A stretch of DNA of 64,000 bases from Phaeodactylum tricornutum CCAP 1055/1 (taxonomy: Eukaryota; Bacillariophyta; Bacillariophyceae; Surirellales; Neidiaceae): assembly GCF_000150955.2 (NCBI RefSeq), contig NC_011686.1, positions 620,001 to 684,000 on the forward strand. Reading direction: 5' to 3'. A model generated the notes under the pieces. That model did not search any database. It was not told the origin of the DNA and saw nothing but the letters and a program-made list of their open reading frames with translations. A program made the position numbers and the translations under genes. Positions 13,181 through 53,203 of this stretch are shown piece by piece. How positions within the stretch are numbered: the stretch's first letter is position 1; each line of letters begins with the position of its first letter.

Positions 13181-16099
13181 TCAATCGGGTTTTCGTAGCA
13201 CTTTACGATCGAGCTCCGCATACAAACGGTCTTTGTGTGTGGCATCAAGCGCGCCGCCAATTTCCCAAGCGGTTAGCCCATCTCGCAAAGAATTAGCAGT
13301 CAGAGCCCTGCCCGCGATATCTCGCAGATCGCCACATAGATTAGGACCGACCGGCAATGATCCGTACGGTCGGGCCCCCCTGTCGGACGGTCTCAGGAAC
13401 ATCGGCAGCATATGACGTTGTGCAACGGAAGCATTGTGATTTGCTTCGTTCGCCGCTGCCTGTGTTACAAGCTGTCCATCCATGAAATGCCTCCACAGCT
13501 GTTCTTCGATCAGACCGTTAGTCACAGGAATAGGCATACCATGTGGAGAAAACATTACAGATCCATGTAAAGCATGTGCACCATACCCCATTGTTGACAA
13601 GGTATAAGTGTCGAGGGGAAAGCTGCTGCTCATACTCGTGCGCATTGACATTTTGTATGCTGCCACCACGCCGCTGGCCTTTCGCAGAAGTTCCTCGAGT
13701 CGAGCATTTGCTTCTTGCATAGCTGCCTTACGTGCGCAAAGGTCATTGCAAAATTTTTCTAGAGATTCATAGCGCTCTTTTCGTCGTAGCCGCTTTCGCC
13801 GTGATGCGATTACATTGAGAATTCGTTTACGGTTTTCTCCTTTAAGAAAGTGGAGATTTTCTTCGTTGACTTCGACTTCTCCAGACGATGAAACAATTGC
13901 ACCGTTTCTTTGCTCCCAATCCCTCACTTCTTGCGTTTCCTTTGGGTTTTTGACAATCATTTCATCGCGAAAGTGCGGATCGCCGTTCTCATGGTCAAAC
14001 CCACCGTTTAGCGATAGGTCGTCTGCAACATGTACTTCACCAGGCTCTCCAACACCGGATAAAAGGCCTGTAATATCTGCTCTTTCCTGGCCCCTTCTAT
14101 TTTCGTTCAAAGCCACAATATCTGCAAAACTCATCTTTCCGCCGATCAAATCAGGCAGGTGTTCTTCCTTTAGGCCACAAGCAACAAGCGTAGCCAAAAC
14201 TTCCGATGGCGCATTTGCATCGTGCGCAAGCACTTGGCAGCCAAACAAACCAAGGACAGATGGTAGGACTCTCTTTTCAAACACTTGCTCCTCAAAACCA
14301 CTCAAGCAATGAATTATATGGACTCTCTTGAAACGTATTGGTATTGACCGTCGTAACATTTCAGCAACTCCAGACCTCCCTGCCGCCTGTCCCATTTCTG
14401 TTTGGCCTAGCAAAGCAATCACAACGGCGCCGTTCTCAACCGTTTTTTCATTTTGCATAATTCGAGTCAGGGTATAAAATCCGCATTTCAGGCGCTCTGT
14501 TGACTCAGCACCAGCCAATTCCGGAGTATAAAAAATCACATCTCTGCCGACGTTGTCTTTCTCCAGAAGTGTGATATAGGTGGAGGATAGAAGCTCGATA
14601 TCATCACTAGATAAAGCTCCGTCCCCCGTTGTATTCATGGGCAAAAACGCTCGATCTCCAAACAGTCTTTGGCGTGTTTGCCAGTGAGAAACAAATCGTC
14701 TTGCAGCTGCTAAAGGATCGTTTGCTTCAAACTGAAGAAATATCCTTGGGTGCGTTTCTCGGTGGAGCAGGTCTGGAGCAGACTCAAGTGCTTCCAAAAA
14801 AGAAGATTTTTCGCTTTGAGGAATCTCGCGAAGCGCCTTCGCAAAGGCATCGAGCGCTGTGGAATTACAGTGGTCTAATTGCGTCTGAAAGATCCAACTT
14901 TTGGGTCTTTGGGGCACATTCAATAAGTCATGGCCCTTTGTTTTGGATTGGAAAACCTTGTCAGTATCGGCAAGGTTGAGCAAGTCAGAGTGCGCAAGTT
15001 CAGCGTGGGCTTGCCACTCCATTTGAGTTCTCGCTTTATCCAGATTGATAACATCTGCCTGAGAAAGGGCTCCACCAACTTTTACAGGAAGAGCTTCGGG
15101 CTTGAGAGCCCGGATCTGGAAGAAGTCCCCAATCTCCTCTTTTGTACAAGTTGCCAAGGAAAATGTTTTGACAGGACAGCTGTACAATCTAGTGAGTTGT
15201 GGAACGCAGCGCTCAAAAACATTCATCTCGTCACCAGTTAAGGTGTGGAACAAGAGCAGGGCCCCCAAACGAACTGGCATCGCCTTTAAGAGGCTGGCTG
15301 GTGTCTCACGACCAAAGATGCCATCAAAGCCCCTTTCATCCATGTACGTCAGAATTGTGTAGCCATCTTTGGCATTGTTAGTGTTGTGCATAGCCAGAAA
15401 TTGGGTATAAAAAACGCAGCGGAGACGCGCTGGTGTAAAGGAGGCTAAGACTCCAGGTTCGAAGAACTGCACGGAACAACCATCTTGATTGTTGGGCAAA
15501 GCGACCAAATAGTGCGTGCGGTACAGCAACAAATCGGTCGGTGATAAGGTTCCCTCTCCTGTCGAGTTCATGGGTAAAAAGGCTCGCTCCCCGAAGACAT
15601 TTTTCCGGACCTGCCAGTGCTGTGCAAAGAGGAGTGCGGCGGCGGCGACGTTTTCACAACGGAAGCGCAAGAAAATCTCTGGGTTCGACTCTCGATACAA
15701 GATCATTGGGATGGTTTGGCAAGCCTCTATGTACGCGCTTTTCTCAAAATCTGGAATCTTGTCCAATTCGTGAGAAAACTGCTGGAGGCTCTCGTAGACA
15801 CCAGAACCCTGCGTTACATTGAAAAACATCCATTGGTGGTTGCCTTTTTCCGCTGAGAGAGCAAGGGTGGAGGTTGGGATCCCGACGGTTCTGTCTATAG
15901 AGCACTGTTCTTGTCCAGACGCTATTCCGGCCGAGGCGACCATGGATTTAGCACTTTCAACGTTGTAGTCGCTATCCTCAGGAGCTCGTGTTAGCTTTTT
16001 CGTGGGCTTAAAAAGGTCCACCTTGGCAGAGCACTTTAGGGCGCCTGAGCGCGGGCCATCGCTACTACTTCTCTTTTTTGCTTTCAAAAACAAATCCAT
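13181..16099 (-). CDS. Tandem CRAL-TRIO/bZIP fusion protein (paralogue A)
   Basis: A 972-residue protein starting with ATG at 16099. Two Sec14-like CRAL-TRIO modules follow a Lys/Ser-rich head, at about residues 99-343 and 402-656. Each has the helical entry (ESNPEIFLRF; ETHPRIFLQF), the family motif RAFLPMNxTGxG and a closing LP..(V/I)GG turn like that of Sec14. A complete bZIP follows: Asn762, Ala765, Ser766 and Arg770 match the invariant N-x7-R basic region, and Leu780, Leu787, Met794 and Leu801 form the zipper in exact register. A motif SPHGMPIP...IEEQLWRHFM lies at about 851-874. CRAL-TRIO pockets bind phosphoinositides, tocopherol, retinal or other lipids; bZIP domains dimerise on DNA. 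A ligand-responsive nuclear regulator is the inference. No introns are needed. Confidence 0.85.
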   Translation of the reverse strand: MDLFLKAKKRSSSDGPRSGALKCSAKVDLFKPTKKLTRAPEDSDYNVESAKSMVASAGIASGQEQCSIDRTVGIPTSTLALSAEKGNHQWMFFNVTQGSGVYESLQQFSHELDKIPDFEKSAYIEACQTIPMILYRESNPEIFLRFRCENVAAAALLFAQHWQVRKNVFGERAFLPMNSTGEGTLSPTDLLLYRTHYLVALPNNQDGCSVQFFEPGVLASFTPARLRCVFYTQFLAMHNTNNAKDGYTILTYMDERGFDGIFGRETPASLLKAMPVRLGALLLFHTLTGDEMNVFERCVPQLTRLYSCPVKTFSLATCTKEEIGDFFQIRALKPEALPVKVGGALSQADVINLDKARTQMEWQAHAELAHSDLLNLADTDKVFQSKTKGHDLLNVPQRPKSWIFQTQLDHCNSTALDAFAKALREIPQSEKSSFLEALESAPDLLHRETHPRIFLQFEANDPLAAARRFVSHWQTRQRLFGDRAFLPMNTTGDGALSSDDIELLSSTYITLLEKDNVGRDVIFYTPELAGAESTERLKCGFYTLTRIMQNEKTVENGAVVIALLGQTEMGQAAGRSGVAEMLRRSIPIRFKRVHIIHCLSGFEEQVFEKRVLPSVLGLFGCQVLAHDANAPSEVLATLVACGLKEEHLPDLIGGKMSFADIVALNENRRGQERADITGLLSGVGEPGEVHVADDLSLNGGFDHENGDPHFRDEMIVKNPKETQEVRDWEQRNGAIVSSSGEVEVNEENLHFLKGENRKRILNVIASRRKRLRRKERYESLEKFCNDLCARKAAMQEANARLEELLRKASGVVAAYKMSMRTSMSSSFPLDTYTLSTMGYGAHALHGSVMFSPHGMPIPVTNGLIEEQLWRHFMDGQLVTQAAANEANHNASVAQRHMLPMFLRPSDRGARPYGSLPVGPNLCGDLRDIAGRALTANSLRDGLTAWEIGGALDATHKDRLYAELDRKVLRKPD

Positions 16100-29388: not shown

Positions 29389-30348
29389 AGATTGCGGTAG
29401 ACAGCCTGAGCATCCAATTCATCCACATGGTTGTGGAGGATTTCACGCGCACAAGGGGTCAACAATATATTGTTGAACACGCCAAAAACAAAGTTCTGCA
29501 TTTCGGCAAATGTATCTGTCTTGTTGACGGTCTCAGGCAAATAATCCGGGTCAAGAACAAACTGGACGCCATGGATACAGAGCTTGATACAAATATTTGT
29601 TTTCCAAGTGACCCAAAAACGGTCTTCACTGAACTTTGGGTACGGAACGGAATGATTTTTGATTGTCTTCCGAAATTTCGCGGCAGTACTTTTGACAAAG
29701 GAACTCCAAGCGTCCGATCCAACAGGAGTAGCAGGTGTAACAATAGCAGAGGCTGGTTGCCAATACTCAAGGACTTCAGGGGTAAGTTCAAGCCAGGTTT
29801 TGTTTGTCACGTTGGTACCTTTCGAGAGGAACCATTTGACAATCTTAAGGATCTGATCCTGCTGGGCAGGCGGAAGAAACATACAAACAATGGTGGCAGG
29901 GGTATCTCCCACAGAAGGAGTCAAAACACCATATGACACCGTTGCAAGACGATTTTTGGTGATGGAGGCCAACTTGCTGGCCTGAAAAATACCGTACTCT
30001 TCAAAGAACCGACAGTACGACAAATCTGGTGTTGTTGCTCCCAAAAGGTTCATAAGAACATGTTCAAGAGGGTCCATGGTCAAAGCAGGGATGATTCTCA
30101 AACACAACTGTTGGACCATTCACACGCAACAGAATCTTGTGCACCAAGGACAAACAAGACAAACAAAATATCTTGTGCACCAAGGACAAGCAAGATAACA
30201 ATTAATCCTATCAACTTGTCAGCAGACCAAAAACAACAACAATGCCACTGGTCTTACCCAATGGATTGTTTTATTGCCATTCTATCACAGAACCAGACAA
30301 TCCCCAACAAACAGGAGCAAAGTGATTAGCAATCCAAGATTTTTAATC

Positions 30349-30734
30349 TGTCAACGTCAAGTATCTCCTGGCTTCTGAAGACAGCACAAGGTGATCAAGA
30401 CTTGCCTGGCTTCTAACAAAGAGATACAAACTAACAAAAATGGTTTTCACACAATTGTGGTCCATTTCACTATTCTCCACAGTGTTATACATGGCACCAT
30501 GGGCACATTCATCATAGTTACCATGCTCCTTAGCATGGCAACAATTGAGTCCCAAAACAGTCACATCATGTTTCTGAATACTCAGCTGGGAATGCGCCTG
30601 TCCAAAACCATCCATGTCGGGATTTGTGGCCAAACACACAAGATTAGTTTCGACAGGCTCGCCTTGGGTGCCACGACCCAAGTAGTGCGCGCCATCGCGC
30701 GAACCGGTACTCAAAACTGTCATTCCAGTTGACA
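30349..30734 (-). repeat. LTR of Copia element 2
   Basis: 386 bases matching the 467-base LTRs of element 3, reverse-oriented, shorter and CpG-depleted. It is the 5' LTR of element 2. Confidence 0.85.
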
Positions 30735-36900: not shown

Positions 36901-38446
36901 TGAGCGTCTCTCGGATTCCCTTCGTGCGATGAATTTTATTCCTTGCAAAGCGGACCCTGATCTCTGGATGCGTGACTGCGATGACCATTGGGAGTATGTG
37001 TGTGTATACGTAGACGATATTGCGTGCGTCTCACGAAACCCCAAGGCCTTCTTTGATTCCCTTGTTTCAGACCATCATTACACTCTGAAGGGTGTTGGTC
37101 CCCCGACTTACTTTCTTGGTGGTGATTTTACTCGCGACAGTAAGGACAATACTCTCGCGGTTGGCGCGAAAACGTACGTGAAACGTATTATTTCGAACTA
37201 CAAGACCTCCTTCGGTACGGAGCCCAAGCTGTACTCGTCTCCTCTCGAGAACGGTGATCACCCAGAAGTCGACGCTTCGCAACTCCTTGATTTCGGTTCG
37301 ATTAAGTTGTACCAGTCCCTCATCGGTGCCCTCCAATGGGCCATCACTCTCGGGCGATTTGACATACAGTGTGCCGTCATGACGATGGGACGCTTTCGTG
37401 CTGCCCCTCGAGAAGGACATTTGAATCGTCTTCGTCGTATCATCGGATACCTTCGTCGTTACCCTGATGCTGCCATTCGTTTTCGTACTGGAATTCCCAA
37501 CCATGAGGCTCGGGGAGACGTCCCTCAACACGACTGGATGTACTCGGTATACGGTAAATCGACTGACGAGGACTCTCCGACAGACATGCCGCCTGCTCGT
37601 GGTAAGCCTATGCGCATTACCACCTTTGTTGATGCTAACTTGTATCATGATTTGACTACAGGCCGTTCTACAACGGGTGTCTTGCATTTGGTTAATCAGA
37701 CTCCTGTGTCTTGGTTTTCTAAACGACAGTCTACGGTTGAAACGGCTACGTATGGCTCTGAATTTGTTGCTGCTCGTTTGGCTACGGAGCAGATTATTGA
37801 CATGCGTCTTACTCTACGTATGATGGGCATTCCCTTGGACGGTCCTGCTTGGCTCCTTGGCGACAATCAGAGCATTGTTACCAGCTCGACTTTGCCTCAT
37901 TCTGTTCTCTCCAAACGACACAATGCGTTGGCATACCACCGCGTTCGCGAAGCGATCGCTTTTGGTATCATGCATTTTTTGTGGATTGAGGGTAAGGACA
38001 ATGCAAGCGACGTGTTGACCAAACCTTTGGGTCACGCAGTTGCTTGGTCTTTGGTTCAGCCTTTGTTGTTTTGGAAAGGTGAGACGAAATCCCCCGTTCG
38101 TTCTGTTTCGAGTACCTCACAGTGGGGAGTGTCAACTGGAATGACAGTTTTGAGTACCGGTTCGCGCGATGGCGCGCACTACTTGGGTCGTGGCACCCAA
38201 GGCGAGCCTGTCGAAACTAATCTTGTGTGTTTGGCCACAAATCCCGACACGGATGGTTTTGGACAGACGCAATCCCAGTTGAGTATTCAGAAACATGATG
38301 TGACTGTTTCGGGACTCGATCGTTGCCATGCTAAGGAGCATGGTAACTATGATGAATGTGCCCACGGTGCCGTGTATAACACCGTGGAGAATAGTGAAAC
38401 GGACCACGATGGCGCTTGGCAGATCGTGGGGCCAAATGGAAAGTGA
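33983..38446 (+). CDS. Copia element 3 pol (protease, integrase, reverse transcriptase, RNase H)
   Basis: A 1487-codon frame. The protease motif LIDGGANGG lies near 34.32 kb. The integrase core, with its D, D and E in TDTFFSD, LLSDNA and QNYAER, spans about 35.0-35.5 kb. The reverse transcriptase YVDD box is near 37.0 kb and RNase H is at about 37.6-38.0 kb. The frame ends inside the 3' LTR. Element-encoded. Confidence 0.9.
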   Translation: MDQRGPRPAPAPAPALSVNAAATQPPPTVYVSDSTVVDNQSLASTHVPPAAGPGQLLRSLISNSAARQHPAPSNGATSDSFSVNGTTYRSEVNRSSVQYRLSTHDVSLNKDSLIDGGANGGLSGSDVTVISQSLLEATVSGIGNSELTNLRLSTVAGLIHTTDGPIIGVFHQYAHLGTGNTIHSCNQMRSWGVTVDDVPRTFGGKQRIVTSDGRFVIPLSVSGGLTYLSMQAPTEEDLDTFEWVPFTADNEWDPNGVSSPAAADNDLSLQLPAGHVPFRDERINNFGLLAHSAAVSRSPLNADALQPNFGWVPSARISRTFENTTQFARADVRLPLRKHFKSRFPAANVSRLNEIVATDTFFSDTPAADDGILNHGGATMAQLFVGKSSQITSVFPMKRESQFAHTFEDFIRTHGAPDALLSDNARAQIGQQALQILRMYAIDDMQCEPHHQHQNYAERRIQEVKKMVNTIMDRTNTPPEYWLLCLFYVTYLLNRLAVESLNWRTPLQVAHGQRPDISALLLFRWFEPVYYYDPDHASFPSASREKTGRWIGVAEHKGDALTYWILTDNTHQAIARSVVRSANVDNGLKNHRAANSSPDGGEPSNPKPIVLATSDLRHDATVDPSFEKSPAFSPDELIGRYLIREAPDGQSHRALVARKIIDADSDNHQAICFLLQIDEKDADEIISYNELSDLMEAQQSEPATNGNIEDHFKFTSIIGHQGPLQPTDAGYKGSSWNVLVQWEDGSQSYEPLIEMAKDDPVTLAMYASDNDLLNVPGWRRFNRLLRNRDDFNRSVSLVKQRKGDPMFKFGVLVPRNSREALKFDANAGNTRWADAMELELAQHREYKTYKDLGKGAATPGPEYQRINVHFVFDVKQSLKYKARLVAGGHMTAPPKDSVYSGVVSLRSIRLALLAGEVNGLETWVGDIAVAYLEAYTKEQVYFVAGPEFGELSGHTLLIDKALYGLRTSGARFHERLSDSLRAMNFIPCKADPDLWMRDCDDHWEYVCVYVDDIACVSRNPKAFFDSLVSDHHYTLKGVGPPTYFLGGDFTRDSKDNTLAVGAKTYVKRIISNYKTSFGTEPKLYSSPLENGDHPEVDASQLLDFGSIKLYQSLIGALQWAITLGRFDIQCAVMTMGRFRAAPREGHLNRLRRIIGYLRRYPDAAIRFRTGIPNHEARGDVPQHDWMYSVYGKSTDEDSPTDMPPARGKPMRITTFVDANLYHDLTTGRSTTGVLHLVNQTPVSWFSKRQSTVETATYGSEFVAARLATEQIIDMRLTLRMMGIPLDGPAWLLGDNQSIVTSSTLPHSVLSKRHNALAYHRVREAIAFGIMHFLWIEGKDNASDVLTKPLGHAVAWSLVQPLLFWKGETKSPVRSVSSTSQWGVSTGMTVLSTGSRDGAHYLGRGTQGEPVETNLVCLATNPDTDGFGQTQSQLSIQKHDVTVSGLDRCHAKEHGNYDECAHGAVYNTVENSETDHDGAWQIVGPNGK

Positions 38447-38596
38447 ACAGATTAGCTCTTTAGTTTAGAGTTTATAAATCTTAACAACGATTGTGTGAAA
38501 ACCATATTCGTTAGTTCGTATCTCTTCGTTAGAAGCCAGACGAGTCTTGATCACCTTGTGCTGTCTTCAGAAGCCAGGAGATACTTGACGTTGACA
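38130..38596 (+). repeat. 3' LTR of Copia element 3
   Basis: 467 bases, paired with 32041-32507. Confidence 0.93.
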
Positions 38597-38601
38597 CTGC
38601 C
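38597..38601. repeat. Target-site duplication CTGCC (right) of Copia element 3
   Basis: Matches 32036-32040. Confidence 0.9.
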
Positions 38602-39072
38602 AATACCACTACCAATCAACCTGGTCGCAAAGCCTTCTTCCCCAGAAAGCTCCACGGGATGCTGACTGATCTTGGTTTTAAGGGGAGCGACATTGCCGCC
38701 TTCCTCCCCAACGGACAAGCTTTTATAATTTTCAAGCCTAACGAGTTTACCGAGGAAATATTACCCAAGTAGTTCAATATGCACCACTTTGCAAGTTTTC
38801 AGAGACAGTTGAATCTCTACAAGTTCAAGCGGACCAGCAAAGATGGGTCCTACAAGGGGGCTTACTATCACGAGCTATTTGCTCGCGAGCGACAAGATCT
38901 CATTTCTATGATCAAGTGCCAACAGACCACAAAATTGATACCTCCGTCGTCGTCAAAGAAGCAGAGCTTACGTAAAGCAGAAAAGCCGGGAGCCGTCGGG
39001 TTTTCATCTGTCGAGAAGCCCACGTTTACATCTTCATCTCCAAATTTGGTAAAAAAAGTCGACAAATTGTAA
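38602..39072 (+). pseudogene. HSF-like transcription factor pseudogene, 3' part with DNA-binding domain
   Basis: The host gene resumes after Copia element 3. It encodes an HSF-type winged-helix DNA-binding domain: FFPRKLHGMLTDLGF, then FKPNEFTEEILPK, then FNMHHFASFQRQLNLYKF, then GAYYHELFARERQDL, with a basic/Ser-rich tail ending at 39072. A TAG at 38770-38772 replaces the aromatic residue expected just before FNMHHF, inside the DNA-recognition region. With the TAG in the 5' part, the gene carries two nonsense codons outside the transposon, so it seems to be a pseudogene in its own right, not merely interrupted. HSFs normally bind GAA-type heat-shock elements as trimers. Confidence 0.78.
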
Positions 39073-40722: not shown

Positions 40723-43002
40723 TCAGATGGCACTTTCGTTAGCGACTGAGAGTTGATGATCTACCGCTACAATTTGGTTTGCCTGCTTTAAAAGATCTTC
40801 AAGTCGTTTCTCTTCAGATCTCAAAGACATATTCATGATTAATTCAGTCGAAAATTCTTCTTGAAGTGCTCCATACTTGGCCTTCCGTCTCGCCCGTTTT
40901 CGCTTTGAGTAGATAGCGTCCATTTTGCGTTTCCTCTCATCATGTGTGAGGTGATCCAATTCAGTCTCGGGAACAACTTTGAGCTTTGCCCCACGTCGAC
41001 CAGTACTCCTTCTGACAGGCCAATTTTGCTTCGAGCACCTTTCCTTCTCTTCCACCGCTCGGACGCATTCTATTTCATCAAGTTTTTGAATTGTAAGTTC
41101 TCCACCAAGCCATTCTGGGAACCTGTGGGCCCTTAAATTATTTGCCTCCAAAATTTCTCGGATTTCCCAGCGAGAATAGCCAGAATGGATTTTAAAATGA
41201 TCAAATGCGTAAAGACCGATGATTGTGGGAACCAGTCGCTTAAAGAAGGAAAACTTTTCTCCTGAGTGTAAGCATTGCACCAAATGGAGCTCGCGAAGGC
41301 GGCAAGGGAACGCTCGGCGAAGTAGGTCGGCTGGCTTAGTACGCCCAGTAGCACGATAGAAGCCGGGGTTATCGAACATTGCAACAACAAGAAACCCTTC
41401 ATCCAGCGATCGTTCGTTCTGCATAAGGAGAGAAAAGGCATAAAATGCACATCGAAGCCGTTCGGGTCCTTCGATCGTAATACGTCCTGGAGAGTAGCAA
41501 AGGCTCCCACGTCCACATTCGTCCTGAGGTAAATCGACTAGGTAGCGAGTCTTCCAAGCTTCAAGTTCTGCAGGCCCCAAAGCACCCTCGCCTGTCTGAA
41601 CAATAGGCAAGAACACTCGGTCCTCATAAATTTTCACACGTTCCTCCCAGTACGTCAAAAAGCGCCTTACTGCCTTCATCGAATGGTTCCTTTCGTGCCG
41701 AATGAATAGCTCTGGTGGCGACTCTTCCTCAACTAATAGCGGCGCTCTTCGAATGGCCTGCAGATAGCCAAGCTTTTCCTTCTGCGGGATGAGCATTAGT
41801 ATTCGATCAAATGAGCGACGATGACGTGACAAAGCACTTTCTGGCAATGAGTTGGCCTTGTTGTGCGTCGACCGCCATCCGCCACCAAGGGAAGTAGGCA
41901 GGTAGGCCCGGCGGAATGAGTTCTGCTCGAGAATTTTACACAATTGAACCGCAGAATCGTAGTCGTGTATGTGTGCCTGAGATCCCCAGACACTGGAGAG
42001 CCCAGTTGATTTCCACAACCATGACTTCTTGCCGTCATGAAAGGAACATACGTGTATGTCCTGGACTGTGAGGGGCAAAATAGACCCAATCCAGCTCGTC
42101 AAAGTATGGTACAGGGCTTGGTCTACTTCTTGGAAAGAGGAGCATGCTGCTATATCTTCTCGTATCAGAATGCGAATCGATTCGTTGCCCTGCTCGGATA
42201 AAATGGCCAACATGTAAAACAAGACCCGTCTTTGTGATAAAGCATCCTCGCGACCTTCGAACGGCGAGCACCAGGGGTCCCAGAACAAGACCGGCAGAGA
42301 TCGCGCCTCGGACATGGGAAGAATCACTAAGAAATTAGACTTGAGGGCGTCCTTCTCTCGCTTGGACAGCCAACCAGACGACGGTCCATAAGTATGTTCC
42401 TGTTGGGAACCAAACATCATCTCACGCTCGGTCCAATAGGAGGCCAACCGCTTGCTCGCAGCCCAAGGGTCCCCTCGCGCAGCTTTCAAAAATTGCGCAA
42501 AGTCTGGTGGGTTCTGAAAGTCGTCATGCGGATGGTTTCGTGTGCAACATGTCCTGGAGCGCTTAAGGAAAGACCGAAAGGCCTTTGTTACCTTCGGGGG
42601 CAAGAGTTGCATCGCCGTTGCCATTTCCGGAGTGAGAAACGTTTTAAAAAGAGTAGTTGCGTCCTCCTCTACGGAAGCTTTAGAATGTCCTGCCGCTAAA
42701 TGTTTCTGCAAAACCATATCAACCGCATGCTGCCATTCAGTCGGCGAGGATTTTTCCTGCTGACGACAGCTACTAGTGTGCGAGTCATCCAAGAAATCGT
42801 CCAAGGGCGTTTTGACGGACATGTTCGGAAGAGGGACGGAGCAAAGCTTCCTTCGCTTTCGCGTTCGGAACTCAACAGAACGTAACGCGATCAGAAATCG
42901 AATCAATGAAGATAGATGTGAGGCAGGTTGTACACTTACTGCACAGCGATATGAGGATCGCTTTGCCTCAGGGCCGTGGGCAGACGCGTTCTTACGATGC
43001 AA
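40723..43002 (-). CDS. CRAL-TRIO/bZIP fusion protein with altered basic region (paralogue B)
   Basis: Up to 759 residues from 43002. An internal ATG at 42822 (codon 61, MSVKTPLDDF) is the more likely start. A diverged Sec14-like module lies at about residues 160-375 and a better conserved one at about 395-640 (EDRVFLPIVQTGEGAL; FPEWLGGEL). A bZIP-like segment begins at about 690. Here the invariant basic-region Asn is Asp695 and the Ala three residues later is Tyr698, while Arg703 is kept. The zipper register has Leu713, Glu720, Leu727 and Leu734. DNA contact is therefore probably changed or weak, and this member may act as a dimer partner or dominant modulator. That is inference. It lies next to the transposon island. 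Confidence 0.8.
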   Translation of the reverse strand: MHRKNASAHGPEAKRSSYRCAVSVQPASHLSSLIRFLIALRSVEFRTRKRRKLCSVPLPNMSVKTPLDDFLDDSHTSSCRQQEKSSPTEWQHAVDMVLQKHLAAGHSKASVEEDATTLFKTFLTPEMATAMQLLPPKVTKAFRSFLKRSRTCCTRNHPHDDFQNPPDFAQFLKAARGDPWAASKRLASYWTEREMMFGSQQEHTYGPSSGWLSKREKDALKSNFLVILPMSEARSLPVLFWDPWCSPFEGREDALSQRRVLFYMLAILSEQGNESIRILIREDIAACSSFQEVDQALYHTLTSWIGSILPLTVQDIHVCSFHDGKKSWLWKSTGLSSVWGSQAHIHDYDSAVQLCKILEQNSFRRAYLPTSLGGGWRSTHNKANSLPESALSRHRRSFDRILMLIPQKEKLGYLQAIRRAPLLVEEESPPELFIRHERNHSMKAVRRFLTYWEERVKIYEDRVFLPIVQTGEGALGPAELEAWKTRYLVDLPQDECGRGSLCYSPGRITIEGPERLRCAFYAFSLLMQNERSLDEGFLVVAMFDNPGFYRATGRTKPADLLRRAFPCRLRELHLVQCLHSGEKFSFFKRLVPTIIGLYAFDHFKIHSGYSRWEIREILEANNLRAHRFPEWLGGELTIQKLDEIECVRAVEEKERCSKQNWPVRRSTGRRGAKLKVVPETELDHLTHDERKRKMDAIYSKRKRARRKAKYGALQEEFSTELIMNMSLRSEEKRLEDLLKQANQIVAVDHQLSVANESAI

Positions 43003-43578
43003 GTAAAATTGTACGAGTTTTGTCTCATCGCGATCGTGTCGGCAAGTACGTTATACCCGGCCCACACCCGACAGGTAACTTGAAGGTCGTAGGCCGCGCG
43101 GAAGAATCTCCGAGGAATGCCTATATGATTCGGTTCGTCGCTCACAGTCAGTGTTTTCGTGTTCTCGATTCCGCACCGGTCGAACAAACCTAGACCGATT
43201 TCCAAGAACGGTCGTCCTCTTTTATAGTTACGGGATACGAAAGAGAACACCAAATCCATTTTTCGTGAATTCAAACTTCGCTACCGGCAGTTTTATGGAC
43301 ATCCTACTCCAATCAAAACAGAATTATATGCTTTACGGTAGCCTTGCACTGTTTGTCGTCATTTATCAACAACGTTTGTATCCCTTCCCCGGCAATCAAT
43401 TATTTCCGCTAACAAAACTACACTAACCTTAAACTGGCCCAACAGAAACGCATCGGGCCAACGTCCACCGAGGAAACTTTATAGGGGACATAAAGGAAGA
43501 CACAAAAAGTTTGAAGTTGACCATCGATCATAACATTCGACTGGGCGCTCACAGTCAAATGTGTTTCTTCACAGTGAA
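43003..43578. other. Divergent promoter region
   Basis: About 575 bases between paralogue B (minus) and the GT61 gene (plus). No gene seen. Confidence 0.5.
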
Positions 43579-44778
43579 ATGACCATGGTTTTGACCGGGC
43601 GTCAAAGTAAGCCTGCCCTCAAGTATAAGCAACTGGCGAACCGCAGTATTTTTCTGGTTGCTGTGCTAGCGCTGATGTCTTTCTTGTGTAGGTTCGGCAG
43701 CGTAAAATTCTTTGCGCGTTCGCCTCAGATATCTGCTTCCGTGCAAGCGCAGAATTCCAAAATGGATCTGTGTCTAAGCTTGCAAAGGACGGAAAATGTA
43801 ACGACTGCTCAGTTTCGCAGTGAAAGACAGCTAGTAGAATTCTTGGAAGGTCCAGGGCTGCTGGAGAATAATGGGAATGCCCTCATTGCCACCTGCAAGT
43901 TCCAATACAACAACCACTCCCGCCATTTCCCACACGCCATGCAGCAGCTGTATCGATGCCATTCCTGGTGGCTAGCCAATCCCGACAAGCAGCCATGGCT
44001 GGTTTTTAAAAGCCCTCAAAATGCCTTTGTAGGCGGCTTCTTGACAGCTCTCCGGGATGTCTTCAACGTTACCATTGTTCGATTGCGACACAATCTAAAA
44101 GTGGTTCGTCCAAAAGTCGAGTATGCTTTTGGATCGCCATTTGCTGCCAACTTTGGCTATGCCATGCAATCTCCCCGCGACGCCATCGTATTGCGCGATT
44201 CTATTCTACACCACTACGATTTGCTCTCGGATCGTACCGGTGGTTGCCATCGCAAACCGAGTGTAGTGGGGGCGTCGGTGGAAAATTTAATGCGTGAGCC
44301 CTCAATCGGTATCTTGAATCGATCGCAAAGGACCGGCCGTCGCTTCTTTTCTGACTCTTTATTGCGGGACGCTATTCGGGAGCGATTTGGCCTGACGGTC
44401 CACATGATGACCTTTGACGACAAAAACTTTCTTCAACAAGTCCAATTCATGTCCGAGACAGACATTCTATTGTCTCCACACGGTGCCCAATTGACATCCA
44501 TACCCTTCCTACCCCCGTGTGCCCGCATGATGGAATTCTTCCCCGTCGGATACCTCGTTCCCGAGTTTTTTGGCACTCTTGCGGCGGCCTCGGATGTAAG
44601 CTATGCCTACCTCTATACGGGGCAAGACCGCATCTCCGAAACAGCTACATGGATGAAAGATGCCGAATCTCGCCAAGCAGCCCGGCTATTTCCTGTTTGT
44701 CCAAATCTCGAGACAGTCATGGACAATCTGGAGGAGCAAATTGCTGCGTGGCGGACCTGTTGCCGAGGGAAAAACTGA
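43579..44778 (+). CDS. GT61-type glycosyltransferase, Golgi type II membrane protein
   Basis: 399 residues from the ATG at 43579; another ATG two codons on lies in an ACCATGG context. A single hydrophobic anchor (SIFLVAVLALMSFL) near residues 23-36 follows a short basic N-terminus, the layout of a Golgi type II enzyme. The C-terminal half carries the GT61 (formerly DUF563) signature: a FLQQVQFMSETDILLSPHGA core, then QLTSIPFLPPCARMMEFFP. GT61 enzymes include plant beta-1,2-xylosyltransferase and xylan arabinosyltransferases and animal EOGT. The sugar and acceptor here are unknown; N-glycan or cell-wall polysaccharide modification is likely. Several Asn-X-Ser/Thr sites are present. Confidence 0.82.
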   Translation: MTMVLTGRQSKPALKYKQLANRSIFLVAVLALMSFLCRFGSVKFFARSPQISASVQAQNSKMDLCLSLQRTENVTTAQFRSERQLVEFLEGPGLLENNGNALIATCKFQYNNHSRHFPHAMQQLYRCHSWWLANPDKQPWLVFKSPQNAFVGGFLTALRDVFNVTIVRLRHNLKVVRPKVEYAFGSPFAANFGYAMQSPRDAIVLRDSILHHYDLLSDRTGGCHRKPSVVGASVENLMREPSIGILNRSQRTGRRFFSDSLLRDAIRERFGLTVHMMTFDDKNFLQQVQFMSETDILLSPHGAQLTSIPFLPPCARMMEFFPVGYLVPEFFGTLAAASDVSYAYLYTGQDRISETATWMKDAESRQAARLFPVCPNLETVMDNLEEQIAAWRTCCRGKN

Positions 44779-45131
44779 AAAATGCCACAAAGATCTGCTC
44801 TATGTATAGCGAATGCTGGTCCCACAATTACAAAAATATTAGGTCTTGGCATGTTATTGACTACTCTAGGACTGGACAACTTAGTATGGCCTTGAAATAC
44901 TTTAACAAGTGTGTTCGATTTTTAGTTTTTCGGAAAAGAGCTGTGGTCTCTTTCTCACGCTCTCTCGCGAAATTCGTACAATTGCTCCCCGTGGAGAAAC
45001 GATACCATACATAAGGGAGCACTTGTCTCCACTTTAACAAAAGGAAATCACAGCCATTACGCATTTGGGTTGGCTACTAGAGAGCTGGCTAGAGCTAGAG
45101 GATGTACTGATCGTTTCTTTTCTTTTTTGCA

Positions 45132-46832
45132 ATGGGTTCCCAAAAGGGACTCAGTGAGTCCGGAGTAGGAATTCCCAATTGGAGTCCGCCGGCGTGTATC
45201 GAGAGTATCACAAAGAAATCCTCCAACAAATTGGCAATAGCTGACCATGGCCGTTGCCGGAAGATGACTATGGGACCTCGTCGCCCTGTACAAGGTAGCG
45301 AACTATCGTACCAGCCCGTGTCGATCGACGGCGAAGCAGAATGGGAGGGCAGTTGCGATTTACAAGGCTTTTCTGGAACCAGTCATGCAAGACAGTCTCT
45401 GCCCTCCTCAACAAGTTCGAGTCTCTCGCCGTGTTGCGACTCCGGTACAATTATGGCTTTTGGTGCCTTGGGCGTCTTGAACAATATGCCTTACGTCATC
45501 ATGCTAGCCGCAGCGAAGTCGATTTCGGAAGGAGGGACCGCTTTGGTCTATTTGGCGAACGTCGTACCCGGATTGATAGTCAAGATTTCGGCACCATATT
45601 GGTTCGACAGAGTCTCCTACCGCCGGCGTCTGTGGACTGCGTCCCTATTAATGGGTACCGCATTTGTTTTGGTGGGTCTCTGTTCTCGGGAGTCGATCGA
45701 CGAATCATCATCGCAGACTGTTTCGTCGCGTACTTATGGGCAGCTTTTGGGAGTGGCCTTGATGAGTGTACAGTGTGGATTGGGAGAAGCATCCCTATTG
45801 GCGTTGGCTGGCGGGATGGACGCGGCGGCTTTGACGGCCTTTTCGTCAGGTACCGGTGTAGCGGGCCCCGCTGGGTACTTGTGGAAAATTGTGCTCACGA
45901 GCAGCCTCGGATGGTCCCTCCGGCGGATCGCGTATACGGCAATCCTCCTGCCTATCCTTTACGCTGGAATCTACCAACGTTGTATTGAACCAATCCTTCG
46001 GGGAGACGCTGGGGACGTAGTTCCTGAGTACGACACCTCCCAATTGGAAGGACCGAGTATTCGCGATCGACGTCCGGAAACGGATGTCCCGCTTGTTCCT
46101 GGAGAGACGACGGGATTGGGGGAAGAGCTACAAGTCGTTGACCGCAGTCGTAGCACTTGCGATAACGACACATCTCGCGAAGATTGCACCAACGGGAGCG
46201 ATGCGTCGCAAGACCCACTTTTCACGGTTCCGATTGCGTCCATGACTGGGACGCAAAGATTTCACCGAGTATTGTCACTGTGGAGGTACATTGTTCCTCT
46301 CTTTACAGTGTACGCTGCAGAATACGTTTGCCAAGCAGGGGTGTGGACCGCTCTCGGATTTCCCGTATCAAACGCGGCCTCCCGGAATCACGCTTATCAA
46401 ACCGCCAACGCGTGCTATCAAACGGGGGTACTGGTAAGTCGTAGTAGCGGCAACTGTTTCCGGCTAAGTCTTGTATGGCTCTGGATTTTACCTGGATTGC
46501 AAATCGTCAATTTGGTCTTTTTCACGTACGTCGCCGCGAACGCGCCGGATGCGGACACGGAGGGGGGACGCTGGTTCTGGTACTACACACCCACGGTCTT
46601 GTACGGTGCGGCCGTTGGAACTGGTTTGCTTGGTGGTGGCGTCTATATTCACGGATATCAGCGCGTGGTCGCGGACAGCACCCAAAAGGACCACTGTGAG
46701 TTTGCTTTGAGTTCCGTTTCGGTCGCCGAAGGTCTGGGGGTTGGATTTGCGGATATTCTGAGTTTGTGGTGGCAGTCCTGTCTGTACAAGGCCAATAATC
46801 TGGCGGGAGCCGTTGTCTCCTGCCCATTCTGA
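45132..46832 (+). CDS. CLN3: CLN3/battenin family lysosomal or vacuolar membrane protein
   Basis: 566 residues, longer than human CLN3 (438), largely because of a hydrophilic N-terminal extension of about 100 residues and an acidic loop in the middle. Family landmarks are LGVLNNMPYVIMLAAAKSI in the first membrane segment, GLGEASLLALA, FSSGTGVAGPAGY, the second-half segment IVPLFTVYAAEYVCQAG, YQTANACYQTGVLVSRSS, and LYGAAVGTGLLGGGVYIHGY. About ten to eleven membrane segments are expected. Battenin acts in lysosome or vacuole membranes and affects pH, arginine and glycerophosphodiester handling. It is read in a single frame with no intron needed. Confidence 0.92.
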   Translation: MGSQKGLSESGVGIPNWSPPACIESITKKSSNKLAIADHGRCRKMTMGPRRPVQGSELSYQPVSIDGEAEWEGSCDLQGFSGTSHARQSLPSSTSSSLSPCCDSGTIMAFGALGVLNNMPYVIMLAAAKSISEGGTALVYLANVVPGLIVKISAPYWFDRVSYRRRLWTASLLMGTAFVLVGLCSRESIDESSSQTVSSRTYGQLLGVALMSVQCGLGEASLLALAGGMDAAALTAFSSGTGVAGPAGYLWKIVLTSSLGWSLRRIAYTAILLPILYAGIYQRCIEPILRGDAGDVVPEYDTSQLEGPSIRDRRPETDVPLVPGETTGLGEELQVVDRSRSTCDNDTSREDCTNGSDASQDPLFTVPIASMTGTQRFHRVLSLWRYIVPLFTVYAAEYVCQAGVWTALGFPVSNAASRNHAYQTANACYQTGVLVSRSSGNCFRLSLVWLWILPGLQIVNLVFFTYVAANAPDADTEGGRWFWYYTPTVLYGAAVGTGLLGGGVYIHGYQRVVADSTQKDHCEFALSSVSVAEGLGVGFADILSLWWQSCLYKANNLAGAVVSCPF

Positions 46833-47076
46833 AATCACCTGGGAAGGATTTAGAAAGGTATCGGGCGGTAAGTACGCTGATCTTGACTGAGAATAGCACA
46901 ATTAGCAAGGAGAAACCACATGTTGGGTCGTTCTTTCAACGAGTGTGTCTCTATCGGCAGGCCAAAGATAAAATGGTCATAATTATAATTCCAAACACCC
47001 AACAAGTGATTCTTCCAAAGAAGTTAGTGTCTAGGGCATATGATGATATACGGTTGCAACGATGCTTTTTTATGCT
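46833..47076. other. Short convergent intergenic region
   Basis: About 240 bases between the ends of CLN3 and RPL10, AT-rich; it should hold both 3' ends. No other feature. Confidence 0.5.
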
Positions 47077-47730
47077 TTACTCCTGTCCGGCCTTGTACAG
47101 AGCCGACTTTTCGAGAGGACCGCGACGGTTGTGCACCTTGACGATGTTTCCGTCGGCGCTGAGCTCACCACAGCGGCGCATACGGACGTATTCCTCGCGA
47201 GGGTATGAGGTGAATCCCCATTTAAGACTCTTGAGGATCTTTTGTCGTCCGGCAAACTTGAACTTTCCTCGGCGAATGGCTTCAATGACGTGGGCTTCGT
47301 GGGTGTCCTTGGATCGGACGGAGATGAGAATTTGTCCAATATCTACACGAGCCGCCACACCAATGGGCTTTCCGTACGAGTGCCGCATTCCTGAGGAAAG
47401 TCGATCGGCACCGGCGCACGACAGCATCTTATTGGCCCGCAGAACGTGGAACGGATGAGCCCGGATACGAATGTGGAAGGCGTCCTTACCAATGTTCTTG
47501 GACAAATGCTTGTTAATGGCAACACGGCACGCTTCGAGTGCTTCGGAAGAGATCTGCTGCTTTTCATCGCAGACCAAATGCGCTACAAAGGGAAACTGAT
47601 CCACCGGGGCTTTCTTGGCACCCACGTCGAAAATACGAATCTTCGACTCGGGCACACCACGGCAGTAGCGCGACTTGATGTAGGGCTTGTTCTTTTGGTA
47701 GCGGTAGCAACGAGCAGGACGGCGACCCAT
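47077..47730 (-). CDS. RPL10: 60S ribosomal protein L10 (uL16)
   Basis: 217 residues starting [17 protein letters not shown] at the ATG at 47730. The frame stays open 21 codons upstream, but the universal start of eukaryotic L10 is [10 protein letters not shown]. Family blocks include [16 protein letters not shown], the P-site loop region [31 protein letters not shown] and [12 protein letters not shown]. The protein is added late to the cytosolic 60S subunit and organises the tRNA accommodation and P-site region. Only 66 bases separate this start from the end of the upstream minus-strand gene, so the promoter must be short or overlap it. Confidence 0.97.
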
Positions 47731-47796
47731 TTTTAAAAAAGAGACTTGACAGTAAAAGTACGAAAAAGTGGGAGTGACTGCAAGAGCAACCAAAAA

Positions 47797-48323
47797 TCAA
47801 AGAAGGTCAGCGTGTTGATCGGTAAGAATTTGCGGTACAACACGATTGTACTCATGAGCATCCGGCAAACGTAGCCAGACGTGCAACGAACCACAAGGAT
47901 GTTCCAAGCTGCGTTCTAGATATTGATCCCACGGAACGTAGGCAATCGTACGCACGGTTGACAACTGGGCAAACCGAGATTCGTCTGGAAGACAGGCTAC
48001 CGCTGTCCGTTTTGACCCGTTTTAATTTCTATCAGCATCGGAAGCCATCTTTGGCCCATTAATAGTCAACAGCGTTGGTTTCAGTCCTTGATAAAACACT
48101 CCAAGGCCAGCAATATCGCCATGGTCAACTTACCACGCAACTTCTCGTGCGAATGGCAACACGGGACGAGGTTGGTTGTCGGCAACGTCCGATTAACGTC
48201 TCTGGATAGAGAACACCAGAGTCGTCGATAGAAGTCGCTAGAAATGTAGTAAAGCGGTAACTTTGTCCGCTTGTCTGAAAGTACTGGCAAAGTGGAACCC
48301 GAAATGTACCTGGTCTGTGCCAA
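47797..48323 (-). CDS. Probable spliced gene of unknown function (5' end incomplete)
   Basis: Two open blocks on the minus strand join at a good splice pair. The upstream block runs from about 48323 to 48134; a GTAAGT donor begins at 48133, and a CAG acceptor ends at 48003, giving a 131-base intron of a size common in diatoms. The second block runs from 48002 to a TGA at 47799-47797. The phases match: the single leftover base of the first block plus two of the second make GCG. The second block reads VACLPDESRFAQLSTVRTIA, then VPWDQYLERSLEHPCGSLHV. I recognise no domain. The first block lacks an ATG, so at least one more exon lies upstream. Confidence 0.45.
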
Positions 48324-48882
48324 AGCCTACATTTGCTGTTGGACTCTGCATGAGCCGCAATCATGACTACCGGTAGCCCATGGAAACGTCACATCTGTCG
48401 CAGAGAACACGAAAGAGTTTGCATTTTGAGTGACTGCCATTACAGCACGTACACTACTATGTTATTCGTGACTCACGAATGCCGAAATTTACATTGTATT
48501 ACAGTTAGTACAACTCCGTTTTCACAAAACGGCAATGATAAGGGGCTATTGTCGGATGATCTCTATCCTTATTCGTCGATTGCGGAAAATGCCCGCTGGA
48601 CAACGATTCCTCGATTTCAAGTGAAAGTCTACCAGGCTTTTCTCTGGTTTTTGCGGCAACTGGGCACTGGTGGACAAGCTGGGCCTATATGACGCTCGTC
48701 AGTCATTCGGCCTAGCTTACATTGCCTGTTCCACTGACTGCTAAACAGCACTGGAAAGGCAACCGTAGATATATCTCAACCCGTACTATTGCACGAGGCG
48801 TTCATCCTTCGACACTCTGGAAGAACCATTCGTCGGATGTCGCACGAAGACCTCCGTACCATACTATACACAGGTCATCACC
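48324..48882. other. Upstream region of paralogue C
   Basis: About 560 bases. It may contain the first exon of the spliced minus-strand gene and certainly the promoter of paralogue C. A plus-strand frame at 48363-48692 has no recognisable domain and is not called. Confidence 0.4.
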
Positions 48883-50412
48883 ATGGCGACAGTCTCGTCC
48901 TCGACAACAACCACAAGCGCTCCCGATGCCAACAATGGCAAGGCTACAGGAATTCCACCCTCCTCCCTTAGTGTCCTGAAGGAAGCTGTCTTTCAAGTCC
49001 TCGAGTCTCACCATCGCAAAGATTGTCCATTCACGAACGACGAATCGACGTGTGATGACTCGATGAATGATGAATCACAAACTAATGAAAAACAGCAATG
49101 GAAAAAGGACAGCCTAGGAGCCAAGCACAAGGAGAACTCGATAATCCCCGGCGTCGTTCGTATTGGGCCGCTTCCCCTAGGTGAAGGTGGTACTACGAAC
49201 ATCAGAACCGATACACCGACAAACGTCAGTGAAACTAGCTCGGAAGACATTGTAGAAGTTACAATTTCTGGGAACGAAAACTGGATGTTCCAGAACCAAG
49301 ATAATCCGGAAGTCTCGGATCCAGCTTTGGCCTCGTCTCTGACTGCCTTTGCGCAAGCTCTCCGAATGCATCCTACTGCCGAAAAGCAGGCCTATCTTGA
49401 TGCTCTGGAACGATGTCCCGACTTGCTTGCGACAGAATCGAATCCAGCGTCGTTTCTAGTGTTTGAAAAGTACAACGTCGGCGCTGCCGTACAGCGTTTT
49501 GTCTTATTTTGGAAAGTGCGGCGGCATCTCTTTGGCGAGGATCGCGCATTTTTGGCCATGAATGCTACTGGTAGTGGGGCCCTGGTCGGCTCGGATCTTG
49601 CAATGCTAGAGACGGGGATGTTTCGAATTCTTCCTCGTGACGAGCTTGGTCGAGAAGTGGTGTTCCACAATCCTACTTTAGTTGAACTAGATACTATTGA
49701 ACGCGTCCGATGCGCCTTTTACATTGATTGCATGATTATGCGTAACGGAAAATCCTCTACCGAAGGAATAAGCGTGGTTGTGGCACTTGATAAAGTGGGG
49801 ATGGAGCGTAGCTACGGACGGCCTGCCATTGCGAATGTGCTGCGAAATGCGATGCCTTTTCGCATCAACAAGGCACACATAGTGAAGCTCTTTGACGATG
49901 TCGAAGATGAGCAGTTTTTCACGAAACGATTTGTACCAAGAATTGTTGAAGTATTTGGTTGCCCACTCGAGATTCATGGCCCTCCAGAGGATCTTTCAGA
50001 GGAAACTCCGTACACTTTGTCAATCTACTACGATATGGCGACTCTTCCACTTCTCGTGGGCGGAACTTTGCAGAGTACGGAAACGGATTGCATGCAATTG
50101 TTCTACCAGGAACAAGCAAAGTTTTCCACACGAGCTCGCCGCCGAGCGCTTTCAAAGGATAGCAGGGTCAAAGTAATTGAAAATGAAGACCGGAAGAGAA
50201 AAGTCAACGCAGTCGCATCACGACGCAAAAGAATGCGACGAAAAGAACGCGAAGATATGCTACTTTCAACGCGGGATGATCTTATTGAAGAGAATACTTT
50301 GCTAGAAAAAGAGTATGCGCATCTCCAAAGAGTATTGCAGGAAGCACATCACATTGTTGCAATGATCCAGAACTGTCAAGCATTGTTTCAACAAAAATTT
50401 CAAAGAAGGTAG
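48883..50412 (+). CDS. CRAL-TRIO/bZIP fusion protein (paralogue C)
   Basis: 509 residues, with ATG at 48883 in an ACCATGG context. An N-terminal motif SSLSVLKEAVFQVL...IPGVVRIGPLP is shared with paralogue D. A single CRAL-TRIO-like module spans about residues 150-396. It has ESNPASFLVF, the family motif RAFLAMNATGSGAL, a LGREVVFHNP strand, the lipid-gate-like helix region with MPFRINKAHIVKLF, and the terminal LPLLVGGTLQ, matching LPxxxGG of Sec14. The bZIP starts at about 436, with Asn442, Ala445, Ser446 and Arg450 in the basic region and Leu460, Leu467, Leu474 and Leu481 in a perfect heptad. The protein ends soon after the zipper, so this is the most compact of the four members. Confidence 0.87.
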   Translation: MATVSSSTTTTSAPDANNGKATGIPPSSLSVLKEAVFQVLESHHRKDCPFTNDESTCDDSMNDESQTNEKQQWKKDSLGAKHKENSIIPGVVRIGPLPLGEGGTTNIRTDTPTNVSETSSEDIVEVTISGNENWMFQNQDNPEVSDPALASSLTAFAQALRMHPTAEKQAYLDALERCPDLLATESNPASFLVFEKYNVGAAVQRFVLFWKVRRHLFGEDRAFLAMNATGSGALVGSDLAMLETGMFRILPRDELGREVVFHNPTLVELDTIERVRCAFYIDCMIMRNGKSSTEGISVVVALDKVGMERSYGRPAIANVLRNAMPFRINKAHIVKLFDDVEDEQFFTKRFVPRIVEVFGCPLEIHGPPEDLSEETPYTLSIYYDMATLPLLVGGTLQSTETDCMQLFYQEQAKFSTRARRRALSKDSRVKVIENEDRKRKVNAVASRRKRMRRKEREDMLLSTRDDLIEENTLLEKEYAHLQRVLQEAHHIVAMIQNCQALFQQKFQRR

Positions 50413-51355: not shown

Positions 51356-53203
51356 ATGAACCAAGCTGCGTCTTCGACAATCAACCGCATTGCTGAACTC
51401 GAAAACGCGTCCGGAAGGGACAGAATCAGAGAACACGATGGCAAACCCACAAGCGAGCCACCTATTGTGCACAAAAACGAGGCCAAAAGCTCTACCAGCT
51501 GCTCACAGATTGTGCCCCACACTTCCCCTTCGGCCCTGCACCTTCTCAAATCAGCTGTGCAACGAGTGCAACAAGAAGAAATATTGGCTGCCGAGGCATT
51601 ACCTACACCTTTTATAGGCGTTTTGCGATTTGGCCCTGGCAAAGCTGTCCCTAGGAAAAGAATTAGTCCTTCTGGTAAGCGGCCGAGACATACAAATGAC
51701 CGTTCATTTTCTGAAGCATGGATGCTCGAATTACTCGACAAAGTCGATCCTGAAGCTATCAATCCCTTGGTAGCATTTGCCGCAGCCTTAAAAGACATCC
51801 CGGATGAGGAGAAGACTGGATACTACAACACCTTGCGGGAAGCACCCGACTTGATTGCTTGTGAGTCGAATCCACTCATTTTCTTAAAATTTCATTCGGA
51901 CAATGTCGAGGCAGCTGCTCAGCGCTTTGCACTGTTCTGGCAGGAACGGTATCGGATCTTTGGGGAAAGAGCTTATCTACCGATGGATTCCACTGGAAAT
52001 GGTGCGATGTCACGCCAAGATCTGATCGTCTACAACTCACAGTACCTCTTTGTGTTGCCTCGAGACGATGCCGAGGAGTCTGTTGTTTGCTATACGCCGT
52101 CCTTAGTGGATGTGGACTGTAAAGAGCGCATGAGATGCGTTTTCTATACATTTTTCCAAGTATTTAAGAATCCGATGTCATCGAAAACAGGATTCACTGC
52201 CATAACAGTCTTCGACAAGATTGGTATGGAACGTGCTTACGGTAGAAAGCACCCCGCGGATCTGCTGCGAGATGCATTTCCAATGCGAATGAAAAAAATC
52301 CATGCTGTTCTGTTGCTGGATAGCGAGCACGTGACCTACTTCAAACAAAGATCAGAGCCTCTATTTATACAGCTTTACTCTTGCCCCCTGAACACGCATT
52401 TCGAGGGAACAAAAGAGGAGATAGCAAGTTCATTGGTTTCATCCGGGTTCAGAAGTGCTACTCTCCCGGAATCTGTCGGCGGCATGCTCCGATACTGCGA
52501 TGTCGAAGAGGCTTTTACAAAACAACGACAAAAAGAAACAGTAGAAGAAATAGAACGCATGAAAATGAGAAAACGCCTATCGGCAACTGCTTCTGACATT
52601 TCCGAGGCGGCCTACGACCTTTCAGCCACGGAAGCAGATATCACACGCTCGGATAGCGACGACAGCGCATCCCGATGGAAGATGAGGCGACGACGTCAAC
52701 TGAACAACGAAGCGTCAAAGCGAAAGAGAAGAAAAATCAAGCAACACGAACACGATTTAGAGAAACAATGTGCGGCATTGAGAGAGCAAAATGCAAGGCT
52801 CAAAAGCGGCAATTATCAATTGCAACGTCTTTTGATACAGGCGCAAGAAATTGTCACTGTGTATGAGGAACGCATTCTCCACCCGAATCGTGCGATTCAA
52901 AACACTAACCAGCTCAATTCCATGATAAGCAACGAAAATCATCAGGTAGTAGTCCAGCCCAGCACGACTGCGCTTTCGACACCTGTACCCGTCACTCGTC
53001 TTGCCGATGCTATAGGACAGCCTTCTGGTTTTTCTGCACACTTTCTACTCTCACCTGAAGATCCATTTAAATCCAACGCAGTGAGCCTGGCTGACGTTCG
53101 TTTGCTCCCGGGAGGCTTGTACGAGCGACCAATCCAATCAGATACCATCGGACAAAGCGAAACAAAAATGCCGGATTGTGAACGAAAGGCCCGGGTACCT
53201 TAG
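51356..53203 (+). CDS. CRAL-TRIO/bZIP fusion protein (paralogue D)
   Basis: 615 residues from the ATG at 51356. The N-terminal motif SALHLLKSAVQRV...FIGVLRFGPG matches that of paralogue C, and a KRISPSGKRPR basic patch may be a nuclear signal. One CRAL-TRIO-like module spans about residues 134-380 (ESNPLIFLKF; RAYLPMDSTGNGAM; MPMRMKKIHAVLLL; LPESVGG). An acidic linker precedes the bZIP: Asn450, Ala453, Ser454 and Arg458, then Leu468, Leu475, Leu482 and Leu489. A Ser/Thr/Pro-rich C-terminal tail of about 110 residues could be an activation region. It lies 943 bases downstream of paralogue C in the same direction, so the pair is probably a local duplication. Confidence 0.87.
   Translation: MNQAASSTINRIAELENASGRDRIREHDGKPTSEPPIVHKNEAKSSTSCSQIVPHTSPSALHLLKSAVQRVQQEEILAAEALPTPFIGVLRFGPGKAVPRKRISPSGKRPRHTNDRSFSEAWMLELLDKVDPEAINPLVAFAAALKDIPDEEKTGYYNTLREAPDLIACESNPLIFLKFHSDNVEAAAQRFALFWQERYRIFGERAYLPMDSTGNGAMSRQDLIVYNSQYLFVLPRDDAEESVVCYTPSLVDVDCKERMRCVFYTFFQVFKNPMSSKTGFTAITVFDKIGMERAYGRKHPADLLRDAFPMRMKKIHAVLLLDSEHVTYFKQRSEPLFIQLYSCPLNTHFEGTKEEIASSLVSSGFRSATLPESVGGMLRYCDVEEAFTKQRQKETVEEIERMKMRKRLSATASDISEAAYDLSATEADITRSDSDDSASRWKMRRRRQLNNEASKRKRRKIKQHEHDLEKQCAALREQNARLKSGNYQLQRLLIQAQEIVTVYEERILHPNRAIQNTNQLNSMISNENHQVVVQPSTTALSTPVPVTRLADAIGQPSGFSAHFLLSPEDPFKSNAVSLADVRLLPGGLYERPIQSDTIGQSETKMPDCERKARVP

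Follow-up and report, generated by a model that had tools for sequence, protein, structure and literature searches.

Four paralogous genes in the window, the whole stretch of 64,000 nucleotides of Phaeodactylum tricornutum DNA analysed here, encode in a single open frame one or two CRAL-TRIO modules of about 270 residues each, followed by a bZIP domain. This order is the same in the four genes, and their frames lie where the first-pass annotation had placed them (13181-16099 and 40723-43002 on the minus strand, 48883-50412 and 51356-53203 on the plus strand), with no stops inside. At the DNA level, CRAL-TRIO plus bZIP is well supported as a real domain combination. As the best explanation we propose a set of paralogous bZIP factors in which an N-terminal CRAL-TRIO part would have a regulatory role, binding a hydrophobic ligand that switches the zipper; we judge this proposal to have about an even chance of being right. 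The ligand, the action in the nucleus and the coupling of ligand to zipper are what we infer beyond the domains themselves.

The family contains six modules, two in each of genes 1 and 2 and one in each of genes 3 and 4. Gene 1 (13181..16099, minus strand, 972 amino acids) is an open frame with module 1 at residues 86-360 (15020..15844), module 2 at residues 397-668 (14096..14911), a linker, the bZIP and a long C-terminal tail. The listed frame of gene 2 opens with TTG and its first ATG is found at 42822, which gives a protein of 699 and not 759 residues; read from this ATG (40723..42822, minus strand), the gene consists of a strongly diverged module 1 (41848..42618), a module 2 (41023..41844) and the bZIP. 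Gene 3 (48883..50412, plus strand, 509 amino acids) has its module at residues 129-410 (49267..50112), followed by the bZIP, and gene 4 (51356..53203, plus strand, 615 amino acids) has its module at residues 119-400 (51710..52555), with the bZIP and a C-terminal tail behind it.

The relationship among the modules was analyzed by paralogue BLAST, with E-values calculated as for a database of nominally 10 million residues. Five modules share 32-41% pairwise identity, at E of about 1e-38 or better, and five of the six align over their full length. Module 1 of gene 2 is divergent: its identity to the remaining modules is 21-24%, with a best E of 8e-8 and an E of 0.03 against gene 3, and in paralogue BLAST it gave no match to module 1 of gene 1. 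None of the three inner branches of the module tree reached both support limits, and a grouping of gene 1 module 1 with genes 3 and 4 (support 85/93) is only hinted at.

Profile searches against Pfam, which the first-pass annotation had proposed as a check, were positive for one gene per domain: CRAL_TRIO_2 passes its cut-off in gene 2 and bZIP_2 in gene 4, and the remaining genes were below cut-off or unmatched. When whole proteins were scanned, CRAL_TRIO_2 reached 28.3 bits against a cut-off of 23 in gene 2 (E 2.5e-6) and stayed narrowly below it in gene 1 (22.2 bits, E 1.9e-4, residues 518-654 within module 2), and no CRAL-TRIO match was obtained for genes 3 and 4. Scanned singly, two of the six modules matched CRAL_TRIO_2 (best E 2.1e-5) and one matched CRAL_TRIO (E 0.12). 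Two other Pfam matches, Rad51 in the gene 4 module and FAM104 in gene 3 (both E 0.23), were taken as noise. A profile built from the six modules was then compared with 177635 distinct PDB sequences at E up to 10. All ten matches at E<=10 are CRALBP or alpha-TTP, with best E-values of 5e-4 and 0.02, respectively, and two matches below 0.001; the matched part covers about positions 105-200 of the 273 in the profile.

The first-pass annotation had described a shared motif RAFLPMNxTGxGAL and a terminal LPxxxGG. The former is exact in one module, recognizable in loose form in four and missing from the sixth, and the latter is kept in five of six, the remaining module having FPEWLGG. When alpha-TTP and Sec14 are aligned with the modules, an end motif [LF]PxxxGG is common to all six modules, and five of the six keep a Pro-x-Arg; the His that comes after it, as in alpha-TTP, is likewise kept in five.

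The predicted fold agrees with this family assignment. An AlphaFold2 module model computed from the six sequences (mean pLDDT 65, pTM 0.56) was used as a Foldseek query; among the best 50 of 243 matches at E<=10, CRALBP is at the top and all 21 at E<=0.001 are CRAL-TRIO/Sec14 proteins. A full-length model of gene 3 (mean pLDDT 52) gave a list led by AtSFH5 and alpha-TTP, in which, among the best 50 of 573 matches at E<=10, the 22 at E<=0.001 all belong to the CRAL-TRIO/Sec14 superfamily, the Sec14 domain of neurofibromin included, and one weak match is unrelated. For the matches at E<=0.001 the TM-scores by query length are low, 0.34-0.39 with the module model and 0.18-0.24 with the gene 3 model, and the rmsd is above 9 Å. 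Both models are poorly packed overall, so that they serve to identify the fold and are unfit to show a pocket. The predicted module thus falls in the superfamily of Sec14 and alpha-TTP, as the earlier annotation had anticipated; absence of a profile or fold match, which would have refuted that annotation, was not observed. The CRAL-TRIO assignment is carried by the family profile, which in the PDB finds CRALBP and alpha-TTP only, together with the fold searches; the single-sequence matches are weak.

The bZIP domains are located at 13655..13834 in gene 1 (residues 756-815), 40768..40938 in gene 2, 50188..50367 in gene 3 (residues 436-495) and 52676..52864 in gene 4 (residues 441-503). Taken alone, most of them are weak: bZIP_2 passes its cut-off in gene 4 (24.3 bits against 22.3), gives E-values of 0.015 in gene 3 and 0.31 in gene 1, and gene 2 has no Pfam bZIP match. 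The joint profile of the four, searched against the PDB, has GCN4 in first place (E 2.7e-5), ungapped over 48 positions from the basic region to the last leucine of the zipper, and NFIL3 as the second family (E 0.015); the weak end of the list holds further bZIPs, along with some coiled coils that are unrelated. The gene 4 bZIP, too, has a PDB match to NFIL3 (E 0.0011). The ungapped GCN4 match disfavours a chance resemblance arising from basic low-complexity sequence and corroborates the bZIP identity given in the earlier annotation. In the gene 3 model, residues 427-508 form one helix, which contains the best-predicted residues of that model (block means of pLDDT 80-92 from 441 to 500).

The register of basic region and leucine heptads had been described as common to the four genes, and this holds in part; the register equals that of GCN4. 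The Arg at +8 is present in all of them, and the Asn at 0 that completes Asn-x7-Arg in three, gene 2 having Asp in its place. Leucine occupies the d positions +18, +25, +32 and +39 in 14 of 16 cases, the exceptions being Met at +32 in gene 1 and Glu at +25 in gene 2, and the a position +29 is Asn in three genes. Gene 2 is atypical by its Asp for the invariant Asn, a Tyr for Ala and the Glu in the heptad. All four domains differ from GCN4 in another respect: where GCN4 reads N-TE-A-A-RR-S-R, the family reads N/D-xx-A/Y-S-xx-K-R, Ser and Lys replacing an Ala and a Ser at positions which we take to be base-contacting. This shared change suggests an unusual target site, and it makes the site preference as well as the predicted DNA binding itself uncertain.

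Whether the two folds belong to one protein depends on the linkers. From the last module to the bZIP these measure 100, 53, 40 and 63 codons in genes 1-4. Codon usage taken from seven other genes in the window served to score the linkers in six frames; in every linker a positive score was reached by the gene's own frame and by no other, marginally so in gene 2 (1.2), and at the stop frequency of the window the chance of 256 stop-free linker codons is about 1.2e-4. Since each of the four linkers stays open and looks coding in the reading frame of its gene, the fusion claimed earlier is real at the DNA level, and the same observations speak against a bZIP on a separate transcript. A merely accidental open frame is unlikely as well, as four diverged paralogues keep an identical domain order.

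What the modules might bind was approached through contact residues, compared over the final third of the domain in a single alignment of remotely related sequences. E207, T236 and K239 of Sec14 presumably constitute its phosphatidylinositol barcode. Their columns are occupied here by V/I/L/C/F/M, by an aromatic residue (in all six modules) and by P/Q/D, respectively, and no module keeps any of the three. This replacement throughout the family disfavours phosphatidylinositol as the ligand, and the residue pattern would leave another hydrophobic ligand, or none. The description of the modules as Sec14-like is hence appropriate for the fold and not for the ligand group. According to our proposal, the CRAL-TRIO pocket would accept some hydrophobic ligand, though not phosphatidylinositol; isoprenoids, sterols, oxylipins and derivatives of fatty acids are examples of candidates. 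Loading of the ligand would act on the C-terminal zipper by way of its stability or dimerisation, its residence in the nucleus or its binding to DNA. The coupling is modelled on START domains acting on HD-Zip factors. A more far-reaching version, which falls somewhat short of an even chance, would see in these genes a new one-component class of ligand-sensing transcription factors, in which one CRAL-TRIO pocket or a tandem pair exerts direct control over a bZIP with an altered DNA-contact code; the members of a small, expanded family would respond to different lipophilic signals, forming an algal counterpart of nuclear receptors. Counting against the proposed ligand switch are the basic region of gene 2, devoid of the invariant Asn, the Ser and Lys in the basic regions of all four genes, the poor packing of the models, and the four of six single modules that yield no CRAL_TRIO_2 match.

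The same observations can be accommodated differently. The proteins could be true bZIP factors in which the CRAL-TRIO part binds no ligand and acts as a scaffold for protein-protein contacts or dimerisation, as we take to be the precedent of the BCH subclass of the CRAL-TRIO superfamily. Strong divergence, with gene 2 module 1 barely recognizable, and loss of the phospholipid-contact residues would fit such a role, but full-length alignment of five modules and an end motif kept in all six would not be expected from it, and the closest solved relatives by sequence are carriers, CRALBP of retinal and alpha-TTP of tocopherol. We regard a pure scaffold as rather unlikely; in its favour, the title of one paper treats BCH domains as a functional subclass of CRAL_TRIO/Sec14 in their own right (PMC3313917).

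Since CRAL-TRIO proteins dock on membranes, the modules might instead tether the protein to a membrane or lipid store and hold the bZIP away from the nucleus, to be freed once the lipid composition changes. The highest 19-residue Kyte-Doolittle mean is 1.27, so there is no strongly hydrophobic segment and release would proceed without proteolysis. Basic contacts give a divided picture: from the four basic residues of alpha-TTP that we take to be its phosphoinositide contacts (K190, R192, K217 and R221), the K190 column is Arg in five of six modules, but the R192 column is basic in just three, and none of the six has retained K217 or R221. We regard tethering as an improbable role. Still less credit is given to a C-terminal helix that dimerises as a basic coiled coil and does not bind DNA, in proteins that would be lipid carriers or trafficking factors. 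It could account for a Pfam bZIP above cut-off in one gene of four, for a basic region that departs from GCN4 at two conserved positions in the four genes and has lost its Asn in gene 2, and for the non-bZIP coiled coils among the weak matches of the bZIP profile. The GCN4 match nevertheless continues without gaps through the basic region, and the Arg at +8 (4/4) and the Asn at a position +29 (3/4) likewise speak against this reading.

The ligand-switched bZIP factor that we favour has known relatives in its logic. HD-Zip III/IV proteins also unite a lipid-binding pocket domain and a DNA-binding part with a leucine zipper, although they use START and a homeodomain-zipper instead of CRAL-TRIO and bZIP, and their lipid domain comes after the DNA-binding part. 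An excerpt of PMC10126025 states that in HD-Zip IV lipid on START protects the protein and raises the dimer level, and indicates through these START factors that a zipper transcription factor can be under lipid control. Aureochromes, in stramenopile algae, are one-component fusions of sensor and bZIP like those described here; in them a flavin LOV domain follows the bZIP, whereas CRAL-TRIO precedes it in genes 1-4. LOV alters bZIP dimerisation and DNA binding in aureochromes, as an extract of PMC10967249 puts it. In a Pfam scan with E allowed up to 10, where HMMER discards most matches weaker than 0.1, none of the four proteins had a homeodomain, START, PAS or LOV listed, which places the family outside both HD-Zip/START proteins and aureochromes. 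Among relatives of the separate parts, CRALBP, alpha-TTP and Sec14 have the fold and the end motif in common with the modules, with the phosphatidylinositol residues of Sec14 missing here, and we know of no member of that group with a DNA-binding domain. GCN4, NFIL3 and other bZIPs have the same register of basic region and zipper, with NxxAA..SR in GCN4 for the NxxAS..KR found here, and they are not known to have a lipid-binding fold attached.

The window is nuclear eukaryotic DNA, since its uL16/RPL10 gene (47077-47793) matches eukaryotic ribosomal proteins with E down to 1e-88; CLN3, GT61, HSF and SET-like genes are found in the neighbourhood. The HSF genes, together with the length of the uninterrupted frames, are in keeping with a diatom. 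As the GT61, CLN3 and uL16 genes lie within 43002-48883, between paralogues 2 and 3, the family forms a cluster that other genes interrupt, and no simple tandem array. When all six frames of the window were searched with the module and bZIP profiles (E up to 10), and by tblastn, genes 1-4 and no fifth copy came up, and no relatives were found in viral contigs or prokaryote genomes, collections that are not meant to hold eukaryote genomes.

Other features of the window were recorded. A Ty1/copia-type reverse transcriptase frame (RVT_2) is located at 32041-38429 (plus strand) between 300-base direct repeats, and because these are 99% identical the element is probably a recent insertion; similar sequence (92-96%) occurs in inverse orientation at 30302-30734. 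Adjoining the retroelement repeat, 38551-39072 (plus strand) starts like an HSF DNA-binding domain (E 4e-4, slightly below the Pfam cut-off), has an in-frame stop at 38770-38772 and by eye resumes HSF-like sequence past it, being possibly a damaged HSF gene or one with an unrecognised intron. An HSF gene at 53333-54529 adjoins gene 4 on the opposite (minus) strand; its HSF domain is C-terminal (residues 264-357 of 398), and ahead of it no Pfam match was obtained at E<=0.01. Expansion of HSF via tandem duplication in several diatoms is mentioned in an excerpt of PMC7335047. One frame of 911 residues at 61004-63739 (plus strand) combines SAM methyltransferase, D-2-hydroxyacid dehydrogenase and class II aldolase/adducin domains by Pfam, the last two matched in the PDB too; this joining of a reductase to a methyltransferase may hint at methionine-derived pathways such as DMSP synthesis.

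A limited library, weak evidence in this respect, gave no report of a CRAL-TRIO and bZIP fusion protein by titles and abstract openings, and none on diatoms or stramenopiles by title. Sec14 and bZIP are both mentioned, but apart, in a portion of PMC5322657. The bHLH-PAS and bZIP-LOV proteins are the two domain combinations common to the two stramenopiles of a microalgal transcription-factor survey, according to an extract of it (PMC4827209). The 40 CRAL-TRIO superfamily genes mentioned along with clade-signature genes in a passage of PMC7335047, where no fusion to bZIP is mentioned, suggest a wide occurrence of the fold among diatoms.

The meaning of this architecture would lie in how algae perceive lipids. 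Microalgae respond to lipophilic cues, oxylipins among them, and to our knowledge no nuclear-receptor-like sensor for such cues has been described in diatoms. With a pocket domain joined to a bZIP, direct control of genes by lipids could be put to the test, provided that orthologues exist in a transformable alga. If the proposal is true, dimeric eukaryotic transcription factors would have one more built-in lipid-binding fold in addition to START and the nuclear-receptor domain.
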